Part shown: piece after piece, positions 22,587 to 41,191 of the stretch
Numbering within the stretch: position 1 is the stretch's first letter
Layout: each line of letters opens with the position of its first letter
Assembly: GCF_025854335.1 (NCBI RefSeq)
Contig: NZ_CP107716.1
Coordinates: forward strand, 248,001 to 312,000
Length of the DNA stretch: 64,000 nt
From: Pelagibacterium flavum
GTDB lineage: Bacteria; Pseudomonadota; Alphaproteobacteria; Rhizobiales; Devosiaceae
Direction of reading: 5' to 3'
Notes under the pieces: generated by a model
The model's database searches: none
What the model saw: the letters and a program-made list of their open reading frames with translations, nothing else
What the model was told of the DNA's origin: nothing
Translations under genes and position numbers: made by a program

Positions 22587-22892
<306 letters not shown>

Positions 22893-28922: not shown

Positions 28923-30486
28923 GTATTGTTTCCTCCCCCGTCTTCGCCGATCCGTTGTTGCTGGTTGCGGCGAGAACGACTGCGTCTTCGGTGATCTGGT
29001 CACCCGTGAGTTCTTTCGTGATCCGGCCGCTGCGCATGACCAGCACCCGGTCACACAGGCCGACGAGTTCTTGAAGCTCCGAAGAGATCACCACGCAGGC
29101 CTTGCCGGCACTGACGAGCTTGTCGATGAAGGCATAGATCTGGCCCTTGTTGCCGATGTCGATGCCGCGCGTGGGTTCATCGATGATGACGACGTCGGGA
29201 TCGAGCATCATGATCTTGGCAAGCAGAAGCTTTTGCTGGTTGCCGCCCGAGAGTTGACCCGCCTTAAGCTTCTTGCTGCGGACCCGGATATCGTATTTTT
29301 CGATGGCGCCGTCGAGTTCGCGGCTTTCCAGCCGCTCGTCGGTGTAAATGGTGCGAAAGAGCCATGAGAGCGCCGAAAGGACAAGGTTAGGCGCAAGCCG
29401 TTCGCCGAGCAGCAGACCCTTGCCCTTGCGGTCCTCGGTCAGATAGCCGACCCCCAATTCCATCGCATCGGCGACCGAGCCGATCCTGACACGCTTGCCG
29501 CGTACCATGACGGATTTCACATGAGCCGGACGAAGCCCCAAAAGACCTTCGAACACCTCGGTTCGTCCCGCGCCCATCATGCCGCCAAAGCCCAGGATTT
29601 CGCCTGGCCTGGCGCTAAAGGAGATGTCGTGGGCAGTTCCAGGAACCTGTAACCCCTCAACCTCGAGCAGGGGAGGATGGCTGGAGGCGCCGCGCTTGGG
29701 CGGATAGAGCATCGAGAGCTCGCGCCCCACCATCATGCGGGCCATGTCTTCCTGGGACAGTTCGGCCGCGGCGTGTGTGCCGATTTTCTCGCCATCGCGT
29801 AGAACGGTGATCCTATCGGCCAGTGCCTGGACCTCGTCGAGGCGGTGAGAGATATAGAGAACCGCGACGCCCTGCCGGCGCAAGCGGCGCGCGATGCCGA
29901 GCAAGGTTTCCACTTCATTTGCCGTGAGCACGGCCGTTGGCTCATCGAAAATCACCAGCCGGTGATCTTCAAGCAACGCCCGGGCGATCTGGACCAGTTG
30001 CCGCTGGGCAATGGGAAGGGTGTTGACCGGATCGCGCGGTGACGCCGTCGCACCGAGCTCTGCAAGCTTTTCGCGTGCAATTGCCTCCATGCGCGCGTTG
30101 TCGATGATCCCGTTCCTGGTCAGTTCGCGGCCCATGAACAGGTTCTCGGCGACCGTGAGGTCGCCAGCGAGCAGGATTTCCTGGTGAACGAGCACGATGC
30201 CCGCATCTTCGGCATCGGCGGGCTTGGAAAATTTTGCCGTTTCGCCCAGGTAGCGAATCGAACCATCGGTGGGCTGGATATAGCCCGAGATCAGGCGCAT
30301 CAGGGTCGATTTTCCAGCGCCGTTCTCGCCGATGATTGCATGAACCTCTCCGGTGCGGATCTCAAGGTCGACGTCGCGCAACACCTTGATCGGGCCATAG
30401 CTTTTGCCCAGCCCCGAAAGCGCGATCAGCGGTGCCGACTGCACCTTGTGGTCCGCCGATTGCTCGATGCTGGCTGTGGCAGTCAT
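28915..30486 (-). CDS. Sugar ABC transporter ATP-binding protein (RbsA type, two ATPase domains)
   Basis: A 523-residue cytoplasmic protein with two tandem ABC domains. The first has Walker A GENGAGKST (about 56-64), signature near LPIAQRQLVQIARAL and Walker B VIFDEPTAVL. The second has a degenerate Walker A region (GMMGAGRTE), signature LSGGNQQKLLLAK and Walker B VIIDEPTRGIDIG. This is the RbsA/XylG/MglA layout. The start overlaps the stop of the GntR gene (ATGA), and its end overlaps the permease. Confidence 0.94.
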   Translation of the reverse strand: MTATASIEQSADHKVQSAPLIALSGLGKSYGPIKVLRDVDLEIRTGEVHAIIGENGAGKSTLMRLISGYIQPTDGSIRYLGETAKFSKPADAEDAGIVLVHQEILLAGDLTVAENLFMGRELTRNGIIDNARMEAIAREKLAELGATASPRDPVNTLPIAQRQLVQIARALLEDHRLVIFDEPTAVLTANEVETLLGIARRLRRQGVAVLYISHRLDEVQALADRITVLRDGEKIGTHAAAELSQEDMARMMVGRELSMLYPPKRGASSHPPLLEVEGLQVPGTAHDISFSARPGEILGFGGMMGAGRTEVFEGLLGLRPAHVKSVMVRGKRVRIGSVADAMELGVGYLTEDRKGKGLLLGERLAPNLVLSALSWLFRTIYTDERLESRELDGAIEKYDIRVRSKKLKAGQLSGGNQQKLLLAKIMMLDPDVVIIDEPTRGIDIGNKGQIYAFIDKLVSAGKACVVISSELQELVGLCDRVLVMRSGRITKELTGDQITEDAVVLAATSNNGSAKTGEETIRD

Positions 30487-31187
30487 TCGAACACCGGAAG
30501 GATTCTGTCGCGCGAGCGTTCGATGTGCACGCGCATAGCGCGCTCGGCGGCGTCGGCGTCGCGATGCTCGAAGGCGGTAATGATCGCTTCGTGTTCGGCC
30601 AGAGCCTCTTCGGTAACACGCGAATGGAACAACAACCGGAAGATGTGAAAGTGCACATGCTGATGGGCAAGAATGCCGCGCACGAGCTGGTTTCCCGCTT
30701 CCTTGAGAATGAGGTCGTGGAAGATGGCATCCTGACGCGCGAACTCAGAATAGCGGGCGCGCTCGTCCTTCTTGTTGCTCCGCCGGGCCATTACGCCTGC
30801 CGCTTCGGTAAGCGCGGAAAGATTTGATGCGTCGAGATTGGCAACCACGCGGCGGGCGGCGTCAGGCTCAAGAAGCAAGCGAAGCTCGTATAGCTCGGAA
30901 AACTGCGCCCGAGTCAGTTGCGGCGCGGCGCTGTAGCCCATCAGGTGGGTCTTGATCACCAGTCCCTCACCCTCGAGGCGGCCCAGGGCCTCGCGGATCG
31001 GGGTCTGGGAAACGCCGAACTCGCGGGCGAGTGTGTCCACTGTGATGCGTGATCCCGGCGGAATCTTGAGCGCCATCAGCTGCGAGAAAATGGTGTCGTA
31101 GATTTCACTGGCCAGCCCAGCCGGGCGGCGGATCGGCGAGGTCGCCGGCTCGGTTGTTGATGCGGGGAATGGATGTTCTTGCGCCAT
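30483..31187 (-). CDS. GntR family regulator of the adjacent catabolic operons
   Basis: A 234-residue FadR/FCD-type repressor or activator. The winged helix covers about residues 26-90 (AREFGVSQTPIREALGRLEGEGL), and the FCD ligand domain follows with ELYELRLLLEPDAARRV, ARQDAIFHDLI and EHEAIITAFEHRDADAAERAM. It is first in the minus-strand importer operon and divergent from the plus-strand dehydrogenase operon, so it most likely controls both through the short shared region. A palindrome there overlaps the dehydrogenase ribosome site. A longer frame to 31466 lies in the opposite gene. Confidence 0.88.
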   Translation of the reverse strand: MAQEHPFPASTTEPATSPIRRPAGLASEIYDTIFSQLMALKIPPGSRITVDTLAREFGVSQTPIREALGRLEGEGLVIKTHLMGYSAAPQLTRAQFSELYELRLLLEPDAARRVVANLDASNLSALTEAAGVMARRSNKKDERARYSEFARQDAIFHDLILKEAGNQLVRGILAHQHVHFHIFRLLFHSRVTEEALAEHEAIITAFEHRDADAAERAMRVHIERSRDRILPVFE

Positions 31188-31263
31188 GTTTGCCTCTTGA
31201 CATTGCGCGACTGCTAACACGATAGTCGGCGATATGCAATCATATATCCTATAGGATTTGAAC
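31188..31263. promoter_or_regulatory. Divergent control region with a 12-bp palindrome (candidate GntR operator)
   Basis: The 76 bases between the GntR and dehydrogenase genes carry a perfect palindrome ATCCTATAGGAT at 31246-31257, seven to eight bases before the dehydrogenase ATG. It overlaps the likely Shine-Dalgarno TAGGA (31252-31256). A GntR dimer bound here could block both transcription and translation start sites. Its role as an operator is inference from position and symmetry. Confidence 0.6.
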
Positions 31264-32298
31264 ATGAAGGTAGAAGCGGGACAGGCGCTGTCGCTCGCGA
31301 CGGAGTTGCTCGAAGCCAGGGGAGCAGAGCATTCTAATGCTCGGCTGCAGGCCGAGCTGCTTGTCGAAGCGGAACTGCGTGGCCACCCTTCGCACGGGCT
31401 GCAAAGACTCCCACGCCTTCTTGCACGCATCGAACGCGGGTTGGTCGCTCCCAATGCTACGGGCATTCAAACCTGGTCCGGCTCTGCATTTCTAGCTGTC
31501 GACGGCGAGGCCGGACTGGGTCCGGTTGTTGCCCATGCCGCAATCGAGAAACTTGTCGTTCGAGTCGAGCAAACCGGCATCGCCATCGCAGGCATTCGGG
31601 ATGCAAATCATCTGGGAATGCTGGCTCTCTACGCTCAATCGATCGCTCAGAGGGGCCTGATCGGTATCGTGCTCACCAGCAGTGAAGCCCTCGTTCATCC
31701 CTATGGGGGCGACAAGGCGATGATGGGGACCAATCCCGTTGCCATCGGCATGCCGACCTCGGGCGAGCCCTATGTTCTCGATATGGCGACCAGTGTCGTG
31801 TCCATGGGCAAGATCCATGATTATGCACTCAAGGGAGAACCAATTCCCCCAGGCTGGGCACTAGGGCCTGATGGCGCGCCCACACTTGATGCGCAACAGG
31901 CCAAGTCGGGGTCGATCGCGCCTTTCGGGGGCGCAAAGGGGTACGGGCTGGGGCTGGGATTCGAGCTCCTGGTGGCCAGCATTGCGGGCACGCCTCCCGC
32001 TCCCGACGTGCGCGGCACGCTCGATGCAGATCATCGCGCGAACAAGGGCGACGTCATCATTATCGTCAAGCCCGGCAGCGCGGGTGTTGGAGCGATTGTG
32101 TCGGGGTATCTCGACATGGTGCGCGACAGCAAATCGGACGGTGACGCCGTCACAATTCCCGGCGACCGTTCACGGCAGCGCCGGCAACACGCAATAAGCG
32201 AGGGTTTTGAGGTCGACCCCCGCGTCTGGGATGAACTCGTCGCGGCGGGTTCAAATGTCCCGGCCTCAGTCAGGAAATCGTATCATGAACATGTTTAG
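31264..32298 (+). CDS. Malate/L-lactate dehydrogenase family (Ldh_2) oxidoreductase
   Basis: An NAD(P)-dependent oxidoreductase of about 344 residues in the Ldh_2 family, which includes YlbC, ureidoglycolate and 2,3-diketo-L-gulonate dehydrogenases. Seen are HPSHGLQRLP (substrate/catalytic His region, about 44-53), VDGEAGLGPVVA, IAGIRDANHLGMLALYAQ and PYGGDKAMMGTNPVAIGMP. It does not resemble classical lactate dehydrogenase. The start at ATG 31264 is preferred over an in-frame TTG at 31258. First gene of an operon with alcohol and aldehyde dehydrogenases, so it probably oxidises or reduces a hydroxy-acid intermediate. Confidence 0.87.
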   Translation: MKVEAGQALSLATELLEARGAEHSNARLQAELLVEAELRGHPSHGLQRLPRLLARIERGLVAPNATGIQTWSGSAFLAVDGEAGLGPVVAHAAIEKLVVRVEQTGIAIAGIRDANHLGMLALYAQSIAQRGLIGIVLTSSEALVHPYGGDKAMMGTNPVAIGMPTSGEPYVLDMATSVVSMGKIHDYALKGEPIPPGWALGPDGAPTLDAQQAKSGSIAPFGGAKGYGLGLGFELLVASIAGTPPAPDVRGTLDADHRANKGDVIIIVKPGSAGVGAIVSGYLDMVRDSKSDGDAVTIPGDRSRQRRQHAISEGFEVDPRVWDELVAAGSNVPASVRKSYHEHV

Positions 32299-33514
32299 CG
32301 CTCTTAGGGCGCCAAGGGAAATCGTCTTTGGCGCCGGGCAAAGAGCTTGCCTTGCCAGGATTGCCCGGCAACTGGGGGAGCGGGTGCTTGTCTGTACGGA
32401 CGCGCGTTTTGCCGCTGAGCCGATCTTTGCCGAACTTGTGGAGTCACTCAACGAAGCCGGAATGGCGGTAGAGATCGAGGCCGGCGTCCTGCCCGATGTC
32501 CCGGTCAAGTCCTGTTTGGCCTCGGCCGAACGCATGCGGGGCTTTGCGCCGGACGTGGTGGTCGGCATTGGAGGTGGCAGTTGTATTGATCATGCCAAGT
32601 GCGTTGCGATCTTGCTCGCTCATGGGGGCGCGCCCCAGGATTACTATGGCGAGTTTAAGGTGCCAGGGCCCGTCCTGCCGATAATCGCCGTTCCCACGAC
32701 AGCGGGCACTGGATCGGAGGTGACGCCTGTGGCCGTACTTTCCGACGCTGACCGCATAATGAAGGTCGGAATATCCAGCCCCCACATCATTCCTACCGCT
32801 GCCATATGCGACCCTGACCTTACGGCGAGCTGTCCCAAAGCGCTGACCGCTGTCGCCGGTGCCGATGCGCTCACCCATGCCATTGAGGCCTTTACGGCAA
32901 CCCGGCGTGTTGCGAGCCCCGGCATGGCGCAAGAACGGGTGTTTATTGGCAAGTCGGCGATAACCGATCATTTCGCGCGCCTGGCCATACAGACGATTTT
33001 TCCAAGTCTCGAGCGCGCCTGTACGAATGACAACGATAGCGAAGCGCGTGAGCAGGTCATGTTGGGCGCGCTTATGGCCGGTCTGGCTTTCGGCACGGCC
33101 GGCACGGCCGCGGCGCATGCGATCCAATATCCGATAGGTGCGGTTACCAATACCGCCCATGGTCAGGGCGTGGCGTGCGTCCTGCCCTATGTCATGCGCT
33201 TCAATCTCGAGGCGGATGCGGAGCCGTTGGCCGATATCGGGCGGATGCTTGGGCTGTCGGGATCGGACGAAATCGCGCTTGGCAACGCGGCAGCTGACGC
33301 CGTCGAACGCCTTTTTTCGGCCATTGGAATTCCATCCACGCTCGAAGCCCTGGGCCTGCCCCAAGACAAGCTCGAATGGGTCTGCACCCAGGCGCTCGGA
33401 GTTTCGCGCCTGATCGACAACAACCCCCGCCGGATCGACGCCCCCGCGATGGCCGCACTTTTGCAGGCAGCCTATCGCGGTGACCGTATCCGGCTCCAAC
33501 ACGCCATCACCTAG
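32285..33514 (+). CDS. Iron-containing alcohol dehydrogenase
   Basis: A 409-residue group III alcohol dehydrogenase. The NAD-binding motif is GIGGGSCIDHAK, followed by VPTTAGTGSEVTPVAVL, and the metal-binding positions are in GADALTHAIEAF and further on at HAIQYPIGAVTNTAHGQG. It starts at ATG 32285, overlapping the previous gene by 14 bases. Substrate is probably a small primary alcohol or polyol, to judge from the neighbouring aldehyde dehydrogenase. A lactaldehyde/4-hydroxybutyrate-type enzyme is possible. Confidence 0.9.
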   Translation: MNMFSALRAPREIVFGAGQRACLARIARQLGERVLVCTDARFAAEPIFAELVESLNEAGMAVEIEAGVLPDVPVKSCLASAERMRGFAPDVVVGIGGGSCIDHAKCVAILLAHGGAPQDYYGEFKVPGPVLPIIAVPTTAGTGSEVTPVAVLSDADRIMKVGISSPHIIPTAAICDPDLTASCPKALTAVAGADALTHAIEAFTATRRVASPGMAQERVFIGKSAITDHFARLAIQTIFPSLERACTNDNDSEAREQVMLGALMAGLAFGTAGTAAAHAIQYPIGAVTNTAHGQGVACVLPYVMRFNLEADAEPLADIGRMLGLSGSDEIALGNAAADAVERLFSAIGIPSTLEALGLPQDKLEWVCTQALGVSRLIDNNPRRIDAPAMAALLQAAYRGDRIRLQHAIT

Positions 33515-33524
33515 GAGTCCCTTT

Positions 33525-34994
33525 ATGTCATCTGTAGTCGTTGAGTCTTCGCCCGTGGGCATGGATTGTTCTGCCTACGCGCAAGGTCTTTACATAGGCG
33601 GCAAATGGGAGCCCGGCGGCGGCATTCTCGTCATCGATCCTTCGAGCGGAAGCCGGATCGCGGAGGTGGCCGACGCTACTGTCGAAAATGCTCGCGCAGC
33701 CGTTGACGCCGCCGCCCGCGCTGCCGCCAAATGGCGTGCCACGCCGCCGCGCGAACGCGCCGGGATACTGGTTAAATGCTTTGATCTAATGATGCAGCGG
33801 CAGGAAAAGCTGGCCCATCTCATTGCCCTCGAGAACGGTAAATCGCTCGCCGATGCCCGCGGGGAAGTCGCCTATGCAGCGGAGTTTTTCCGCTGGTACG
33901 CCGAAGAGGGCGTCCGCATCTCAGGCGAGTTCATGACGGCACCTGCCGGCAGCAATCGCATTATTGTAGACTACGAGCCGATCGGAATAGCGGTTCTGAT
34001 TACGCCGTGGAACTTTCCTGCCGCCATGGCAACACGCAAGATCGCGCCAGCACTTGCCGCCGGATGCACAGTGGTCCTCAAACCCGCCAGCGAAACACCG
34101 CTTACCGCTTACGCCCTTGCGGCTCTCTATGCCGAGGCGGGCGTTCCCGATGGGGTGGTCAACGTTATTACCACCACAAATCCTGGTCCCGTCACCGCAG
34201 CAATGCTCAATGACCCCCGTGTTCGCAAGCTGTCTTTCACCGGCTCTACGCCGGTTGGGCGCCTGCTGCTGGCGGAAGCATCAAAAACCGTCGTGAGCTG
34301 TTCAATGGAGCTTGGAGGCAATGCCCCCTTTATAGTGTTCGATGATGCCGATCTCGATGCCGCGCTCGACGGGGCGATGTTGGCCAAGATGCGCAACGGG
34401 GGTGAAGCGTGCACGGCGGCAAACCGCTTCCTCGTTCAGGAGGGCATCCATGACCGGTTTGTAGAGGGGCTCACAGCGCGCATGAAGGCGCTCAAAGTCG
34501 GCCCGGGCACGGACGCCGATACCGGCTGCGGGCCGATGATCACGCGCAAGGCGGTGAACAAGATCGAGGCGCTGGTTGCCGATGCCGTCGAGCGCGGTGC
34601 CAGGCTGGTGCTGGGCGGTAAAGGGCTCGATCGGCCGGGCTATTATTTTCCGCCGACGGTTCTGGTCGACGTCTCGCCCCAAGCCGAAATGGCCAAGGAC
34701 GAAATTTTCGGACCGGTGGCACCGGTCTATCGGTTCAAGACCGAAGACGAGGCCGTGGCCATGGCCAACGATACCGAGTACGGGCTGGCCGCTTACATCT
34801 TTACAAGGGATATCCGGCGAGGCATGGCCGTTGCCTCACGGATCGAATCGGGCATGATCGGGCTCAATCGCGGGCTGGTTTCAGATCCAGCGGGGCCGTT
34901 CGGCGGGGTCAAGCAAAGCGGGCTCGGGCGCGAAGGTTCTCACCATGGGGTAATCGAGTTCATGGAAGCAAAATACATCGCCACGAGTTTTTGA
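33525..34994 (+). CDS. NAD(P)-dependent aldehyde dehydrogenase (GabD-like)
   Basis: Oxidises an aldehyde to its acid. The 489-residue protein contains the oxyanion Asn in [10 protein letters not shown] (about 163), the general-base Glu in MELGGNAPF (Glu 262) and the catalytic Cys in [10 protein letters not shown] (Cys 296). Overall it is closest in feel to succinate-semialdehyde-type dehydrogenases ([30 protein letters not shown]). TAGGAG precedes the ATG at 33525 by 7 bases. It probably takes the product of the adjacent alcohol dehydrogenase. Confidence 0.93.
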
Positions 34995-35836
34995 TGTCGG
35001 AAGTCGACGATTTCCGCACGCGCGATCACGTGCCCGACTTCGACCGAAATGTTGAGTGGTTTCGGGAATACAGTAGCCAGACGAAAGCCGCACTGCGCAA
35101 TCGCTGCGACCTCAGGTACGGGGCAGGGGAGAAGGCTACCCTTGATTTGTTTTTCCCAAAGGAGAGGCAGGCTCCTGCCCCGATCCATCTTTTCATTCAC
35201 GGCGGATACTGGCGCATGTTCGACAAGTCGGACTTTTCGTTTGTTGCCAACACGATCTGCACAGCCGGTGGCATTGCGGCGATCATGAACTACGACCTGA
35301 TGCCTGGCGTTCGAATGGCAACGATCGTTGAACAGGTGCACCAGTGCGCATCATGGCTGGTTGAAAACGCAGAGTCGTTCGGGGGTGATCCGGCGCGTTT
35401 CAGCGTCTCGGGCCATTCGGCTGGGGGACATTTGTGTTGTTTTCTTTTTAGCAAAGACAGCCCGGTGCGCCCGAAGGGCATTCTCGCACTGAGCGGAATA
35501 TACGACCTTTCACCTTTGCGGCAGTCATTTCTCCAACAAGAGCTGAGACTCACAGATGACGAGGTCGCGTGTTTCTCGCCGATCAGTATGGACAGCGTTA
35601 GATCGGGCGCAATGGTACTGATGGTAGGAGAAGCGGAGACCTTGCCGTTCCATCGTCAGGCAGCGGCGCTGCGGCAAAAACTGTTGGATGAAGGCTGGGA
35701 CGTTTCTTATCAGTCCATCAAAGGAGCCAATCACATGAGCATCATGGCTCAACTAGGAAGTCCAGATACGATTCCGGGACGGTGCTTGGCAGCGATGATT
35801 GTACCGGGAGTAGGGCCGGGTTTGGGTAAGAAATAG
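34994..35836 (+). CDS. Alpha/beta hydrolase (kynurenine formamidase/esterase type)
   Basis: A 280-residue alpha/beta hydrolase. The oxyanion motif FIHGGYWR (about 67-74) and nucleophile elbow GHSAGGH (Ser 142) are those of arylformamidase/carboxylesterase-like enzymes; the catalytic His is probably in GANHMSIM. The start ATG 34994 shares a base with the aldehyde dehydrogenase stop (TGATG), so it is the fourth gene of the dehydrogenase operon. It may hydrolyse an ester or amide form of the substrate before oxidation, which is inference. Confidence 0.85.
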   Translation: MSEVDDFRTRDHVPDFDRNVEWFREYSSQTKAALRNRCDLRYGAGEKATLDLFFPKERQAPAPIHLFIHGGYWRMFDKSDFSFVANTICTAGGIAAIMNYDLMPGVRMATIVEQVHQCASWLVENAESFGGDPARFSVSGHSAGGHLCCFLFSKDSPVRPKGILALSGIYDLSPLRQSFLQQELRLTDDEVACFSPISMDSVRSGAMVLMVGEAETLPFHRQAAALRQKLLDEGWDVSYQSIKGANHMSIMAQLGSPDTIPGRCLAAMIVPGVGPGLGKK

Positions 35837-36098
35837 GTCAAGCCGATCCAACTATGCAATCGGCAACGAGCTAACGCTAAGCGGGCGCGAAATAAAGAAG
35901 CGATCTGGGGTGCGGCCCGAGCCGGAATCACTGTCAGACCGGCCATTGCGTCGCGAGTGTGAAGACGTCAAGGAGGCGCCTCCGCCAGACGCAGGGTGGC
36001 CGAAAGCAACGCCATCCTATTGTCTTCGCGCCAGGGTCCTGGTGCTGGCGTCAAAATTGGGACCTTGGAGACGCAGCCTTCGGCACTTGGCCAACCTG
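35837..36098. other. Spacer between the dehydrogenase operon and the AAA-protease cassette
   Basis: About 260 bases between two convergent units. A 12-bp perfect palindrome GGAGGCGCCTCC lies at 35972-35983, with no T-run on either side, so termination here is uncertain. Nothing else is recognised. Confidence 0.4.
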
Positions 36099-37970
36099 TC
36101 AATCTTTCGCCGGACTGGCACAAGTCTGGTCGATGGTTTCGCGGATGGCTCCGGCATGCAGGATCTTAACCTTCACCAGACGCGCCGCCAAAACCCGGAT
36201 GGCCGTCTCATTTTCGGTCACCATTTCTCGAGACCGATCCATGAGCTGCCTGAGCTTGGTTTCAATCCAGTCCTCAAGCGAGGGGTCACTCGCGCCTTGG
36301 GAGGAACTAAAGAGCTGCTCGCGTGCGGCAAGTCTTCCGTACAGTCCCCAGTTGTTCCGGGCATCGCCGAGCAGCCGGGTCGCAAATGCCAGATCGGCCG
36401 ACGCTCCCGAATCCGCACCCCCGCCGAACAGTTCATCGGTTGCGCGGCCAGCGAGCTGTATGACGATCATGTCTTCGACCTCATCGGCTGTCGGCGCCCG
36501 GCTCGCCAAGTGCATTTTCGTGCTGCCCGCCGACTCGCCATAAGGGATGATCGTAACAGAATGGACAGCAGTGCCGAGCCGAAGTGCAACGACAGCATGT
36601 CCAGCCTCATGCAGCGCCAACCGCTGGATCTGCTCATCGTCCAGCCCATCGTCAGAGAAGAAGATCCGAGTGACATCTTCGAGGGTGATAGGGCGATCCT
36701 CTTGTCTCGCCCGGGCTTCGGCGGACCGCACTGCTGCCTCGATCTTTGCTGGCGTCGCTCCAATAGCAAGGTTCACGATGACTTGGATGTCCGGCTCCAG
36801 GAGCCGATCGCCGATATAAAAGCGCACGAATTTTTCAGCCTCGGAGTGTGAGGATGGTGGCATGACAGTAATCCTCATCTCAAGGCGCCCCGGCCGGATC
36901 AATGCGGGATCGAGCAGGCTGTAGTGATTGCAGGCACCCAAAAGGAGGACTTTTTTTCCTGAATGGCGAACGCGGTCGATCTGGATGAGGATTCCATCCA
37001 CAACTGGCATCCACCAGTCTCTGCCTTTGGCCTCCAGTCGCCCACGATCGGGAATCGACTGAAGCTCCTCGATAAAACCAATACTGCGATCCTCAGAAAG
37101 CAAAATTTCCACAAAGTTTGCGCATGCCTTGGTCACTGCACCAAGATGGCCGTCGCCAGCATTGAACCATTCCTGGACGCTCGTGCTATGCAATTTCCAT
37201 CCCGAAGATTTGGCGATCGATGCCGCCAGTAAGGACTTGCCAGTGCCTGGCGGGCCATCGAGCGTGGCAAACCGGATAGCCGAGGGAGCAATTTCACCGG
37301 CATCGAGACGGGCAAGATCGGCCATCAGCATGTCGGTCCATTCGCGGACCGGAATGGTGAGCGGCAGTCGGGAAAGCGTTGGAACATGAGACAATTCGAC
37401 GGGGGCCAATTTCCGTGCCCGGACGCGACGCAGCCGCTCCACGCAGTCTTGCGCCGAGTTACCCGCACCAATTGCTGCCATGGCCTCGTGAACGCCGACG
37501 CTCAGCAGATCGATCTGCTTTAGTCCTTTGGGCCGCTGTCCCGTTACCTGGCGAATGACCTTCCGGATCACTCCGACATCAAGGCTTTCGATCTCGAAGA
37601 CTTGATCCGTCATGGAGTGGTACTCCTCAGAAATTGCAGTTGCGGGTGTCGCGCTGATGGCGATCGTAGACACGCCGCTGCCGAGCGTATTGAGGAGTTC
37701 GGTTGCCGCGCTGTTTCTGGAGCTGCTGCGGTTGCTGTGCTTGAATGACCGAATTTCGACTCTATCGAGCTGGCGTGTCAGGCAGGACTCGAGCACATCG
37801 CACCAGCTTTCGGAGGGTACTTTGATAAGCACGGCCGTGGTGGGTGGCTCGGCGGTTTTGAGCCGTTTGAAAAGCGCGCGTCCAAGCACGTGTTCAATAA
37901 GTGCAACAGGCAATGCCACGATTGCGTTTGGTCGACTGCTATTCGGAGTGGATTTCGACGATTTGGGCAT
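36099..37970 (-). CDS. Soluble FtsH-like AAA-M41 metalloprotease, Walker B altered
   Basis: A 623-residue protein pairing a AAA ATPase domain with an M41-type zinc peptidase domain, but with no membrane helix visible. An unrecognised N-terminal region (about 1-190) is followed by Walker A DGPPGTGKSL (239-246), a Walker B that reads IGFIEEL (297-303, Glu where Asp is usual), an arginine-finger region LLDPALIRPGRLE (about 353-365), the zinc motif HEAGH (454-458) and the third-ligand segment SGASADL (Asp about 526). It probably unfolds and cleaves proteins. It is the last gene of a cassette with a small protein and a PD-(D/E)XK-like protein. The start at ATG 37970 is chosen because residues before it overlap the small gene. 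Confidence 0.85.
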   Translation of the reverse strand: MPKSSKSTPNSSRPNAIVALPVALIEHVLGRALFKRLKTAEPPTTAVLIKVPSESWCDVLESCLTRQLDRVEIRSFKHSNRSSSRNSAATELLNTLGSGVSTIAISATPATAISEEYHSMTDQVFEIESLDVGVIRKVIRQVTGQRPKGLKQIDLLSVGVHEAMAAIGAGNSAQDCVERLRRVRARKLAPVELSHVPTLSRLPLTIPVREWTDMLMADLARLDAGEIAPSAIRFATLDGPPGTGKSLLAASIAKSSGWKLHSTSVQEWFNAGDGHLGAVTKACANFVEILLSEDRSIGFIEELQSIPDRGRLEAKGRDWWMPVVDGILIQIDRVRHSGKKVLLLGACNHYSLLDPALIRPGRLEMRITVMPPSSHSEAEKFVRFYIGDRLLEPDIQVIVNLAIGATPAKIEAAVRSAEARARQEDRPITLEDVTRIFFSDDGLDDEQIQRLALHEAGHAVVALRLGTAVHSVTIIPYGESAGSTKMHLASRAPTADEVEDMIVIQLAGRATDELFGGGADSGASADLAFATRLLGDARNNWGLYGRLAAREQLFSSSQGASDPSLEDWIETKLRQLMDRSREMVTENETAIRVLAARLVKVKILHAGAIRETIDQTCASPAKD

Positions 37971-38052
37971 GGGGATTCCAATGCGGCTGTGTCCGCGCGA
38001 TGTTTGATTAAGTGAAGGGAGGAGGGCGTTTGACGCCCTCCAGACCGGCAAG

Positions 38053-38322
38053 CTAGGCGCGTGCACGCCGTTCGGCAGCTTCAAGGTCGGCGAGAAGCAG
38101 ATCGTCCAGCCATTCGAGCACGAGCGCACAGGCCAGTTCGCCACTGGTCGCATTGATCCGCAAACCGTTGCGGACAGTAGCCGGCACCCCCTGGCGGTTC
38201 ACCCGGCCGATGATCCCAAAGCGTATGGCATTGGCAATCAAATCCGAAGTATCGTCTCGCTCAGAGTTTTCGCTGGCGGGCACGCGAGCAGCCCTCACAG
38301 GTGCGTTCTTGTTTGTGCGCAT
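38053..38322 (-). CDS. Small hypothetical protein in the protease cassette
   Basis: An 89-residue protein not recognised from any family. A polar, basic N-terminus (about 1-25) is followed by a mixed segment and a likely C-terminal amphipathic helix (SGELACALVLEWLDDLLLADLEAAERRA), suited to protein-protein contact. The start at ATG 38322 is set by AGGTGG 8 bases upstream; a GTG at 38334 directly after the upstream stop is an alternative. Between the nuclease-like gene (12 bases) and the protease gene (82 bases), so it is probably an adaptor, regulator or substrate of the pair, which is inference. Confidence 0.6.
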   Translation of the reverse strand: MRTNKNAPVRAARVPASENSERDDTSDLIANAIRFGIIGRVNRQGVPATVRNGLRINATSGELACALVLEWLDDLLLADLEAAERRARA

Positions 38323-38334
38323 GTCTTTTGCCAC

Positions 38335-39201
38335 CTAACCGCTGGTCCGCGCCAGCTGGCGCTTACGAGCAAAGTTTATGGTGACCGGACCATGGGCTTC
38401 GACGTCGAGCTCGCTTTCGAGATTCTCGGACGGGAACTCTTGGCTATCGGTGTCGGTCAAGAAGGAGCGGCCCGCATCGCCATGATCGGGGGCGACCAGG
38501 GCAGTAAGCGCTGACTGGACGCTGGCGGCAAAGCTGGCGCGCAGGTAGCGCAGGCTGTCGCCAACTCCGGGACACCCGAGGAGCTGATCGAACCCGTTCA
38601 GACCAATGACATGGTCTCGGGTGTCCTTGTCCGAGCAATCGACTATAGCAACCTCAACACGAGACACAATCAGTGGTCGCCGCCCTGAGAGCAGGGCGTC
38701 CCGCGTGACGAGAGCGGTGGCCATCATCTTTTCTTCCAGCACATCGAGAATAGGTCGGGGATAGCTTGCGGTTGTGCGCTTGAGCTCGAGCAAAAAGGCG
38801 GTGCCCGTTTCGCGGTGTACCGCTACGATATCTGGCGTGTAGTGCTCGACAGCATAGACTTTGGGATCGAGCCTGAATGCGGAAAGAGCGGCGTTGTCAT
38901 TGTTGCGGACGGCTGCCTGTGCGGCTTCGATTACGGGCAACCGGAACTCGGGCGGCAGGAGTGCGAATGCGCCGGAATGGACAAGAATGGCCCGCAGGCC
39001 CGTTTCAAGGACAGTGCCCTCGATACAGACCGCTGATCGCACGAATCCCGCCACTTGGGCGAATGCGCCGAACATCGGATCGGCACGCTCGGGGGAAACA
39101 GTGATGCCGTCGACGGCTTGGCGCGCAAGCCCATCGAGCGTTGGTGCCAATTCGGCAAACCGGGCCGGAAGAGCCGGGAATTTCTTTTGGTCATGAAGCA
39201 T
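38335..39201 (-). CDS. Hypothetical protein with PD-(D/E)XK nuclease signature
   Basis: A 288-residue protein not recognised as a named family. It contains YTPDIVAVHRETG followed by FLLELKRT: Asp 124, Glu 139 and Lys 141 with the spacing of a PD-(D/E)XK nuclease core, preceded by a helix with a conserved-looking Glu (EGTVLETGL). The C-terminal third is polar and acidic. The fold call is by motif only. It is first in a three-gene minus-strand cassette with the small protein and the FtsH-like protease. The start at ATG 39201 has AAAGGCG upstream. Confidence 0.65.
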   Translation of the reverse strand: MLHDQKKFPALPARFAELAPTLDGLARQAVDGITVSPERADPMFGAFAQVAGFVRSAVCIEGTVLETGLRAILVHSGAFALLPPEFRLPVIEAAQAAVRNNDNAALSAFRLDPKVYAVEHYTPDIVAVHRETGTAFLLELKRTTASYPRPILDVLEEKMMATALVTRDALLSGRRPLIVSRVEVAIVDCSDKDTRDHVIGLNGFDQLLGCPGVGDSLRYLRASFAASVQSALTALVAPDHGDAGRSFLTDTDSQEFPSENLESELDVEAHGPVTINFARKRQLARTSG

Positions 39202-40097
39202 GGATTTTTCGCCTTTCAAGGGAAAGGCGGTGCCAAGGATCAAGGATCGCTTCCTACCGCACAGAATATTCGTCTGCACCAATTCGGTGGGCAAACATTG
39301 GGTAGAGACTGGCGAACAGTCATCGCGATAACAGCAATAACTCGCTGTCATCGCGATACGCCCCTTTGTTCCGGATTGTGTGGAACGGGCTTGACGAACA
39401 GGGATTAGTCCCGAGGTCGTGCCGTCGCAAATCCGAATTGACCTCTTTGGCAACCGCCACGGAGTGTCAGGTCAGGAAGCCGTCATGGCGGGGGCGCAGG
39501 CGGCCGGATGCGCGGCGCTGAGATCTGGGACCTCATGATCACGCGGACCCGAACCAGGCAAAATGGGGGATTTGCGCAAGGCGCAGCAATTGATAAGGCT
39601 GTTCATAGCCGTTGATCTCCACAATAGATCTGCGGTCAGGTCCTCGAAGCGTGTTGGCGCACCTTCGGGGACCGCCCTTAGCGATGGCTGGGCGGTTCTG
39701 ACCGGCGGCTCGGACCATTCCGCGCCGCTCCAAGCCAAATGGGTTCAGCCAGACCACTCGACAAGGGTCAATATCAACTTTTTCTGTAACGTTTTCAGTA
39801 TGGTTAACGGCGGGTAGATCCCGTTCGAAGGGAACGTTGGCAATGCGCCATCCGGCTTTGGAACGTCTATGGCCCAGTCGCAATGCTCTGTAATGCGGGC
39901 AGCCATATCGGCAGCGACCTCACCCCGTCCTCCCAGGGCGCCGTCGACAGGAGGCTCAACCTCAACGTCGATGCGGCGATCACTGATTGGGCGTGACCGA
40001 TCCGGAGCGGTCTGGCGCGAGCACACTTTTTCGTCTGCGCGACGTGCTCAAACCGGAGCGTCGTTGACAAGGGGCCCGAGTTCGTGTGAAAAATTTA
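39202..40097. other. Long non-coding stretch upstream of the protease cassette and LacI gene
   Basis: About 900 bases with no gene I can support. Minus-strand open frames (for example 39539-39883 and 39745-40026) lack family resemblance and good ribosome sites and may be decayed remnants. The left part must hold the cassette promoter, including a direct repeat with paired 8-bp palindromes; the right edge holds LacI-type operators. The sequence is mosaic in character, fitting insertion of the cassette. Confidence 0.45.
39319..39358. promoter_or_regulatory. Paired GTCATCGCGATA repeats upstream of the nuclease-like gene
   Basis: A 12-base direct repeat at 39319-39330 and 39347-39358, each containing the palindrome ATCGCGAT, is spaced 28 bp centre to centre. 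It lies about 120-155 bases before the start of the nuclease-like gene on the minus strand. It is a candidate operator for a dimeric regulator; no regulator is encoded next to it. Confidence 0.5.
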
Positions 40098-40137
40098 AAT
40101 CGTTTGCAAAATCATAACAGCAAAATTGCAAACGTTT
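40098..40137. promoter_or_regulatory. Two LacI-type operators upstream of the lacI-family gene
   Basis: Core AA-N-CG-N-TT sites are found at 40098-40105 (AATCGTTT) and 40130-40137 (AAACGTTT), set in the inverted arrangement CGTTTGCAA...TTGCAAACG. The centres are 32 bp apart, about three helical turns, allowing co-operative binding. Autoregulation by the downstream LacI protein is inferred. Confidence 0.7.
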
Positions 40138-40153
40138 CAAATGGGAGGAAGGT

Positions 40154-41191
40154 TTGCAGGTGACGCGGGCGCGCACGCTCAAGGAACTGGCCGAACGGCT
40201 GGGAGTTTCGGTGACCACGGTAAGCCGGGCGCTGGCCGGGCATGAGCAGATCGCGCGCAAGACACGTGAGCGTGTTTCCGAAGCGGCGCGTGAGATGGGA
40301 TATGTCCCCAATATCGCCGGACGCCAGCTCGTATCGGGACGATCGAACTTCGTTGGCTTCATTATTCCGCTGCGCGGCCCCAACTTCATGGACAGCTATC
40401 TGGGCGAATTTGTCACCGGGCTGGGGGAAGGGCTGGTGAGCCACGGGATCGATCTTATCTTGGCAACAGTGCAGCAGGGCCAGTCTGAACTTGAAGTGCT
40501 GCGGCATCTTGTGGAATCGGGCCGCGCGGACGGAGTGGTAATCCCGCGTATCGCGGCCCATGACGAGCGCGTGCGCTATCTCGCCCAACACAATTTTCCC
40601 TTCGTCGCCCACGGCCGGATCGAAGACGACGACATCGTCTACAGCTGGCTCGACGCCGATGGCGAGAAAGCCTTCGAGAATGCGTTCGAGCTGCTTTATG
40701 GCTTGGGGCATCGCCATTTCGGGATGGTGTCGATCTCCGAGGAAATGACGTTCCGCAATCTGCGCGAGCGCGGGTTCAAAAGGGCCATGGAGCGCATCGG
40801 CGATCCCGGTCTTCGTCTCGATATCGTTCGCGCCCCACGGTTCGATCGCGGCGAGACAGTCTCGGCAATCGGGCGGCTGCTCGACGCCCCGGATCGGCCG
40901 ACTGCCATCGTGGGGCTGTTCGACGAGATCGCGTTGACTATTATCCGTGAAGCGGCGCGGCGAGAGCTTTCGATTCCGCGAGATCTCTCAGTCGTGGGAT
41001 TCGACAACATTACCGCTGCCGCCTATGCGCCGCCGGGGCTGACCACATTCGAGGTCGAGACCCGCTCCATGGCGCGCGAGATCGCCCACATGCTGGTGCG
41101 CCGCATTGAGGGCGAACCGGCGGGACTGTCCAACACCCTTATTCGGCCCAGGCTCGTCGAGCGGGCCTCTCACGGACCGGCTCCTCAATGA
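40154..41191 (+). CDS. LacI family transcriptional regulator
   Basis: A 345-residue regulator. The N-terminal LacI helix-turn-helix reads TLKELAERLGVSVTTVSRALAGHEQIA, with a hinge around YVPNIAGRQLVSGRSN, then a periplasmic-binding-like ligand domain (FVGFIIPLRGPNFMD, GLFDEIALTIIREA, VVGFDNITAAAYAPPGLTTFEV). The start at TTG 40154 has GGAGG 5 bases upstream; a GTG at 40160 is an alternative. It heads a cluster with a CUT1 sugar importer and a glycosidase, and two operator-like sites precede it, so it most likely represses this operon and itself. Confidence 0.9.
   Translation: MQVTRARTLKELAERLGVSVTTVSRALAGHEQIARKTRERVSEAAREMGYVPNIAGRQLVSGRSNFVGFIIPLRGPNFMDSYLGEFVTGLGEGLVSHGIDLILATVQQGQSELEVLRHLVESGRADGVVIPRIAAHDERVRYLAQHNFPFVAHGRIEDDDIVYSWLDADGEKAFENAFELLYGLGHRHFGMVSISEEMTFRNLRERGFKRAMERIGDPGLRLDIVRAPRFDRGETVSAIGRLLDAPDRPTAIVGLFDEIALTIIREAARRELSIPRDLSVVGFDNITAAAYAPPGLTTFEVETRSMAREIAHMLVRRIEGEPAGLSNTLIRPRLVERASHGPAPQ

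Follow-up and report, generated by a model that had tools for sequence, protein, structure and literature searches.

A stretch of 64,000 nucleotides from Pelagibacterium flavum (contig NZ_CP107716.1, positions 248,001 to 312,000 of the forward strand; hereafter the window) carries on its minus strand a cassette of three genes, in the order nuclease-like protein (288 amino acids), small protein (89 amino acids) and AAA-M41 protease (623 amino acids). An original prediction, made from the letters alone, had placed three open reading frames (ORFs) here on one strand with 12 bases separating the first two, and this arrangement was borne out; the three genes are genuine and form one set. The features of the locus, in window positions, are as follows.

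35801 to 39997, no strand: accessory stretch with the cassette, whose flanks occur without the cassette in relatives.
36099 to 37970, minus strand: AAA ATPase and M41 zinc protease, 623 amino acids, for which Pfam lists no FtsH N-terminal domain.
38053 to 38322, minus strand: small protein, 89 amino acids; a longer, free-standing protein in Rhizobiaceae and joined to the nuclease in one chain in the paralogous locus L005.
38335 to 39201, minus strand: PD-(D/E)XK-like nuclease, 288 amino acids, with residues E66, D124, E139 and K141.
39472 to 39606, minus strand: candidate tiny ORF, 44 amino acids, its ATG at +27 past the RNA; an ATG in the same place opens the nuclease in L196 and L251.
39633 to 39704, minus strand: structured RNA, a three-way junction of 72 nucleotides before the first start codon, recognized by models R1 and R2 and by covariation.
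39705 to 39728, minus strand: predicted hairpin directly before the junction RNA, seen in single-sequence folds and by eye in several relatives.

Judging from its conserved residues, the first gene product is likely nuclease-like, of the PD-(D/E)XK type. Asp124, Glu139 and Lys141, singled out in the original prediction, are present, and in a comparison of 89 relatives D124 and K141 were kept in all 89, position 139 was D in 74 and E in 15, and E66 was kept in all 88 relatives having a residue at that site; the protein and its relatives thus carry the superfamily signature E, D, (D/E)xK. It had no match at E 1 in Pfam or PADLOC, and a phage search with it gave no match. The 89-residue protein likewise had no Pfam or PADLOC match at E 1, and its single NCBIfam match was sub-threshold. 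Evidence on the small protein includes an hhalign match (probability 96.4, E 1.3e-9, 52 columns); it goes with the PD-(D/E)XK form of the cassette, and fusion to the nuclease is possible.

The third protein matched Pfam AAA (E 2.7e-18) and Peptidase_M41 (E 1.9e-16; PF01434 60.9 bits, cut-off 29.9). Its start is uncertain: the open frame extends to 38153 (684 amino acids), overlapping the small gene, and the ATG at 37970 gives 623 amino acids. Walker, arginine-finger and zinc residues are all kept, and the zinc ligands noticed earlier (H454, H458 and D526), together with E455, showed no change in any of the 56 fused relatives aligned, so that the HExxH motif, the third Asp ligand and the adjoining AAA module of peptidase family M41 are all found. 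The protein is distinct from FtsH, scoring 107.8 bits with the FtsH equivalog model TIGR01241, whose cut-off is 600, and the same genome encodes a true FtsH elsewhere as well as two further M41 proteins. The lack of a membrane anchor, proposed in the original prediction, is likely but unproven: a Pfam scan listed no FtsH N-terminal domain, but the peak 19-residue hydropathy mean of 1.77 (Kyte-Doolittle), from residue 16 and with charged residues inside, is not decisive. A phage search with this protein returned nine records with partial matches below 28% identity, which we took for putative FtsH.

To examine the prevalence of the cassette, the AAA-M41 protein was sought in 101 relatives. Matches were found in 97, mostly through their own FtsH at about 85 bits, and 33 copies in 21 genomes scored at least 119 bits, a patchy and multi-copy distribution. 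The order nuclease, small protein, AAA-M41 was common to the window and L181. In Rhizobiaceae, the AAA and Zn protease parts are separate genes in the same overall order, on plasmids and other replicons. Relatives of the nuclease occurred on 11 plasmid records, assigned to Rhizobiaceae by genus, and 10 of them were examined. Three (L198, L201 and L205) carry nuclease, small protein, ATP-binding protein and ATP-dependent Zn protease in that order; in L202 the AAA part is split over two frames, in L196 no small gene is annotated in between, in L203 the last gene is annotated as hypothetical yet matches the M41 part, in L197 IS3 genes occupy the expected protease position, and in L204 nuclease and small protein are followed by the nearby record edge. 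The L199 and L206 records carry no annotation.

A search of genome contigs with a rhizobial nuclease alignment yielded 79 loci, by title from Rhizobium, Shinella, Ensifer/Sinorhizobium, Neorhizobium, Hoeflea, Agrobacterium, Devosia and other Hyphomicrobiales, and a scan of viral contigs added one cassette (L220), for a total of 80. Of these, 73 had sufficient DNA and a called nuclease; in 72 of the 73, genes for AAA and Zn protease lay downstream (exception L297), and the small protein was called in 57 of the 72; the 72 include many close relatives rather than independent events, and the search query was drawn from cassette-bearing loci. The conserved neighbourhood across Hyphomicrobiales, suggested earlier as a check, was thus found, the genes recurring together in Devosiaceae and Rhizobiaceae. 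M41 proteases are usually quality-control enzymes, and the genes might accordingly be read as an operon for a stress or housekeeping protease that has an unrelated nuclease-like gene nearby by chance; the patchy multi-copy distribution, the linkage in 72 of 73 loci and the swapping of effectors described below make this very improbable. Two further genes were observed at the rhizobial cassettes: one of 103 amino acids without a Pfam match is often next (L220:7654-7965; its cluster spans 45 of the 80 loci), and a weakly DUF429-like gene of 308 amino acids follows in 17 loci (L246:11178-12104).

The window's genome also holds two paralogous loci. At 385 kb (L005), a 366-residue nuclease-small protein fusion, its nuclease 39% identical, is followed by AAA-M41 and a tyrosine recombinase. 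At 2451 kb (L006), a 428-residue protein precedes the third AAA-M41 gene of the genome, which is interrupted by a transposase gene (L006:7388-8224 and L006:8219-9859), the 428-residue effector frame being full length. In Devosiaceae cassettes the nuclease slot is often held by such a GIY-YIG/DUF4357-like protein of about 400–430 amino acids, which resembles the PADLOC candidate defence family PDC-S14 (four proteins, with best E values from 4e-14 to 1e-23). Pfam at E 0.1 gave only DUF4357, below its cut-off, for the five effectors scanned, with the GIY-YIG model unreported; the putative GIY-YIG label rests on the PDC-S14 resemblance, our reading of the motif and one annotated gene, on a Bosea plasmid, where a gene annotated as a GIY-YIG nuclease precedes an AAA gene. 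GIY-type cassettes may be followed by genes of 87 and 201 amino acids without a Pfam match and by a DUF6634 gene (L160:3931-4832, L172:3909-4172).

The DNA upstream of the effectors shares an element, many copies of which fold as an outer helix around two hairpins. It precedes both effector types, PD-(D/E)XK and GIY-type, and because in the window it lies, with the 44-residue candidate ORF, in what had been described as a long gene-poor stretch, that description was partly wrong. Model R1 was built from seven sequences including that of the window, which accordingly scored 65.8 bits as a training member. In the window's genome, its top three matches were the three cassettes (71.6 and 65.8 bits, both trained, and 25.2 bits), and the next match scored 18. 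Against 136 genomes of the family, R1 gave 44 matches at E ≤0.01 in 36 genomes. In a separate comparison, each cassette had one same-strand match. The 29 matches of at least 36.5 bits comprised the seven training sequences and 22 new loci, of which 21 were followed by an effector or its fragments and 19 by an M41 gene (counting L167, with only the first 51 M41 residues within its stretch); those failing were L162 and L170, where the effector is fragmentary and M41 is absent, and L163, where no gene was called in the 1.5 kb before the contig ends. Among 14 weaker new matches, effector and M41 were present only at L183, L185 and L190, and nine or so look like chance.

Covariation in support of the three-way junction is strong. 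In a 36-sequence alignment (A7), 86.0% of cells pair compared with 75.2% after shuffling, and 97 cells are doubly changed compared with 34.4 (none of 500 shuffles as high); A7 was fitted to the model and its pair counts lean that way, so that the slid versions, with at most 14 such cells, are the better control. RNAalifold on A7 partly recovered the second hairpin (8 pairs), and support for the complete junction comes from single folds, pair counts and models. A second model, R2, built from 14 GIY-type leaders only and thus leaving out the window RNA, found the latter at 40.1 bits (E 2.6e-8). Among eight other PD-(D/E)XK loci it found L048 alone, weakly (E 0.043), with no match at E 1 in L005, L039, L181, L196, L199, L204 or L206; because R2 misses these seven, their leaders rest on R1 and position. 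Further afield, 74 mostly rhizobial loci gave 45 weak RNA matches, 34 of which lay on the same strand and at most 600 nucleotides before the nuclease match, where about 1 would be expected by area. Among 397 genomes of the order, 18 had an RNA match, 12 of them outside the family; a GIY-type gene adjoins in two of those (L207 and L219), and in the others no adjoining gene could be labelled as one. A loose DNA pattern of the element picked out 45 stretches in viral contigs.

The position of the RNA relative to start codons is regular. In the 11 PD-(D/E)XK loci read, a start codon lies at +27 to +30 after the RNA, ATG in ten of them and TTG in L244. This codon begins the nuclease frame itself in L196, L244 and L251, whereas a short ORF starts there in the window and in L005, L039, L048, L181, L206, L223 and L226. 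In many GIY-type loci, the called effector start is at +24 to +39. The two hairpin loops share at least five bases in 24 of 36 RNAs, compared with 11.7 when partners were swapped (0 of 2000 as high) and, leaving aside RNAs with TGCAA in the second loop, in 6 of 16 compared with 2.7 (20 of 2000 as high), in a test that ignores relatedness of the RNAs. The paired loops often hold the same 5–7 bases, co-varying between loci, and several resemble 7-base anticodon loops by eye. A tRNA-like gene was considered and rejected, ARAGORN finding only a tRNA-Ser (cga) in the window, at 22587-22676. An attachment site for the tyrosine recombinase was also rejected because of the covariation and because the elements of four PD-(D/E)XK cassettes, compared with 35 loci, had no second copy within their own locus. 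Rfam gave three matches on 35700-40300, each below the gathering score, and consensus scans for promoters and terminators found 2 and 1 sites, compared with 1.6 and 4.2 in shuffled sequence.

The flanking DNA marks the cassette as an accessory insert. The left flank (30001-35800) has an 86% match in two genomes of the same genus (L072 and L073) with other genes beyond, and the right flank, from 39998, has a 99% match in the same-species genome G101 (L071; 92% complete), again with other genes beyond and with the cassette absent from this site. In G101 a RES-domain gene lies about 0.5 kb past the right boundary (L071:5781-6281), making this position a possible hotspot of accessory genes.

The recurring core is therefore a leader RNA, a nuclease-like effector and a dedicated AAA-M41 protease. 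We explain it best as an accessory nuclease-protease module, probably directed against phages or plasmids, in which AAA-M41 would free the nuclease, a reading to which we give roughly even chances on the comparative evidence. The defence reading draws on the conserved order, the effector swap, the kept active sites, the RNA, the patchy insertion and the nearby defence genes. The leader RNA would limit expression of the operon post-transcriptionally, and AAA-M41 would sense a state of invasion or be recruited to one. ATP-driven unfolding and proteolysis would then strip an inhibitory part or partner, possibly the small protein in the PD-(D/E)XK form, and the freed nuclease would cut nucleic acid, stopping the invader or the cell. 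A defence or stress function, with protease-triggered release or removal of the nuclease or small protein, had been put forward in the original prediction and is partly supported; the conserved set, the effector swap and the defence genes nearby speak for defence, and the function continues to be one that we infer. A more speculative version, in which the RNA is a working part of a new immunity class and would tether or muzzle a dimeric nuclease until cytoplasmic AAA-M41 strips the complex, is suggested by the matched, co-varying short sequences that the twin loops often carry, and we think it unlikely.

Genes near the rhizobial cassettes were sampled as 72 of 402, one per locus. By Pfam, 8 of the sampled genes carried HNH_2 and 3 carried Mrr_cat, and two kinds of DNA methylase occurred once each. 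A PADLOC scan at E 1e-10, with figures from 25 of 97 families, gave among the families listed HNH in 8 of 72, PDC-S02 in 3, mREase_IV in 2, and MTase_I, ZorD, OloB, DruM, PDC-S11 and PDC-S36 in 1 each, families that may partly name the same genes. Several points weigh against the defence reading. The 72 control genes (mad3 in 2, mad8 in 1) came from ordinary chromosomal loci, some mutually homologous, rather than from matched accessory regions, and the eight HNH neighbours may largely be one syntenic gene. The window cassette itself adjoins sugar operons, the setting originally described and confirmed for the window neighbours, and not defence genes. FtsH-type proteases degrade processively and do not usually make a clean activating cut. 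The effector is broken while the protease is intact in L272 and L185. Finally, repABC adjoins the cassette on three plasmid records and KfrA and ParA genes occur downstream, which fits plasmid or element maintenance too.

These last neighbours, and a tyrosine recombinase after M41 in eight loci (L005, L043, L046, L048, L176, L179, L183 and L190), suggest a module that would serve the upkeep or mobility of plasmids or integrative elements, through addiction, segregation or help in transposition, rather than phage defence. Distant M41 relatives also stand beside TnsB- and TniB-like genes. We nevertheless regard such a role as improbable: the window cassette has no recombinase, rep, KfrA or ParA neighbours, the gene order is kept in loci that lack recombinase or rep genes, and defence genes lie near the rhizobial copies. 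As a separate observation, at L056:8154-12282 and L064:8502-13462 the distant AAA-M41 relatives accompany TnsB-like (rve, Mu-transpos_C), TniB-like and weakly TnsA-like genes, loci that L052, L053, L054, L057, L059 and L061 resemble by gene lengths only; the link of M41 proteases to Tn7-like transposons may merit separate study.

The main rival to activation by AAA-M41 is restraint: the protease would constantly degrade the nuclease, or the small protein would tag the nuclease, which would accumulate only once the protease is blocked or titrated by an invader. The nuclease would then be a toxin whose antidote is its dedicated protease. The near-constant linkage of nuclease and protease agrees with this, as does the fusion of the small protein to the nuclease in L005, expected of a degron or adaptor domain, and a leader RNA able to hold translation low would suit a toxic product. 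In four loci, however, a predicted full-length effector frame accompanies a damaged protease: a transposase gene lies inside M41 in L006, IS3 genes stand at the protease site in L197, the M41 match stops at residue 539 of 623 in L045, and M41 is in two frames in L166. Because full-length effectors appear to persist with a damaged protease, activation is preferred and restraint, although possible, seems doubtful.

Comparison with known systems placed the cassette apart from each. Its adjacent nuclease and protease genes recall the Hachiman, AVAST and canu pairs, and PMC12799240 reports that in Hachiman and AVAST the nuclease is a proenzyme which its partner protease activates, making proteolytic control a natural model. 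In those pairs the nuclease is an MBL-type hydrolase and the protease is trypsin-like or a caspase (PMC12799240). The cassette has instead a PD-(D/E)XK-like or GIY-type effector and an AAA-M41 protease that depends on ATP, along with a small protein and a structured RNA; Pfam gave AAA and M41 for its protease and nothing for its nuclease. FtsH shares the AAA and M41 zinc protease parts, and the cassette protein differs by its equivalog score and by the AAA/M41 split in Rhizobiaceae. Compared with PDC-S14, the cassette effectors keep about 130 to 145 N-terminal residues outside the best match (L041 and L043), with an AAA-M41 gene following and an RNA preceding. IetAS also combines an AAA ATPase with a protease, and the cassette AAA part matches IetA models (E 1e-10 to 1e-11). 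IetS, however, is a subtilase; no subtilase was found among the three cassette proteins, and NCBIfam IteA scored 34.8 bits against 510. Type III toxin-antitoxin systems such as ToxIN have a structured RNA upstream of a nuclease gene; the cassette differs in having a single three-way junction without tandem RNA repeats and a protease in the set. In the open-licence literature of PubMed Central, we found no report of this gene set and no assigned job for non-FtsH AAA-M41 proteases.

The set may be an undescribed defence system, in which two unlike nuclease families are tied to one protease and one RNA and have spread on plasmids and other replicons of Devosiaceae and Rhizobiaceae. Should it serve in defence, it would be the ATP-dependent equivalent of nuclease switches that work through trypsin-like or caspase proteases, and would add an RNA with twin co-varying loops. 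Collectively, the gene set suggests a testable role for non-FtsH AAA-M41 proteases.

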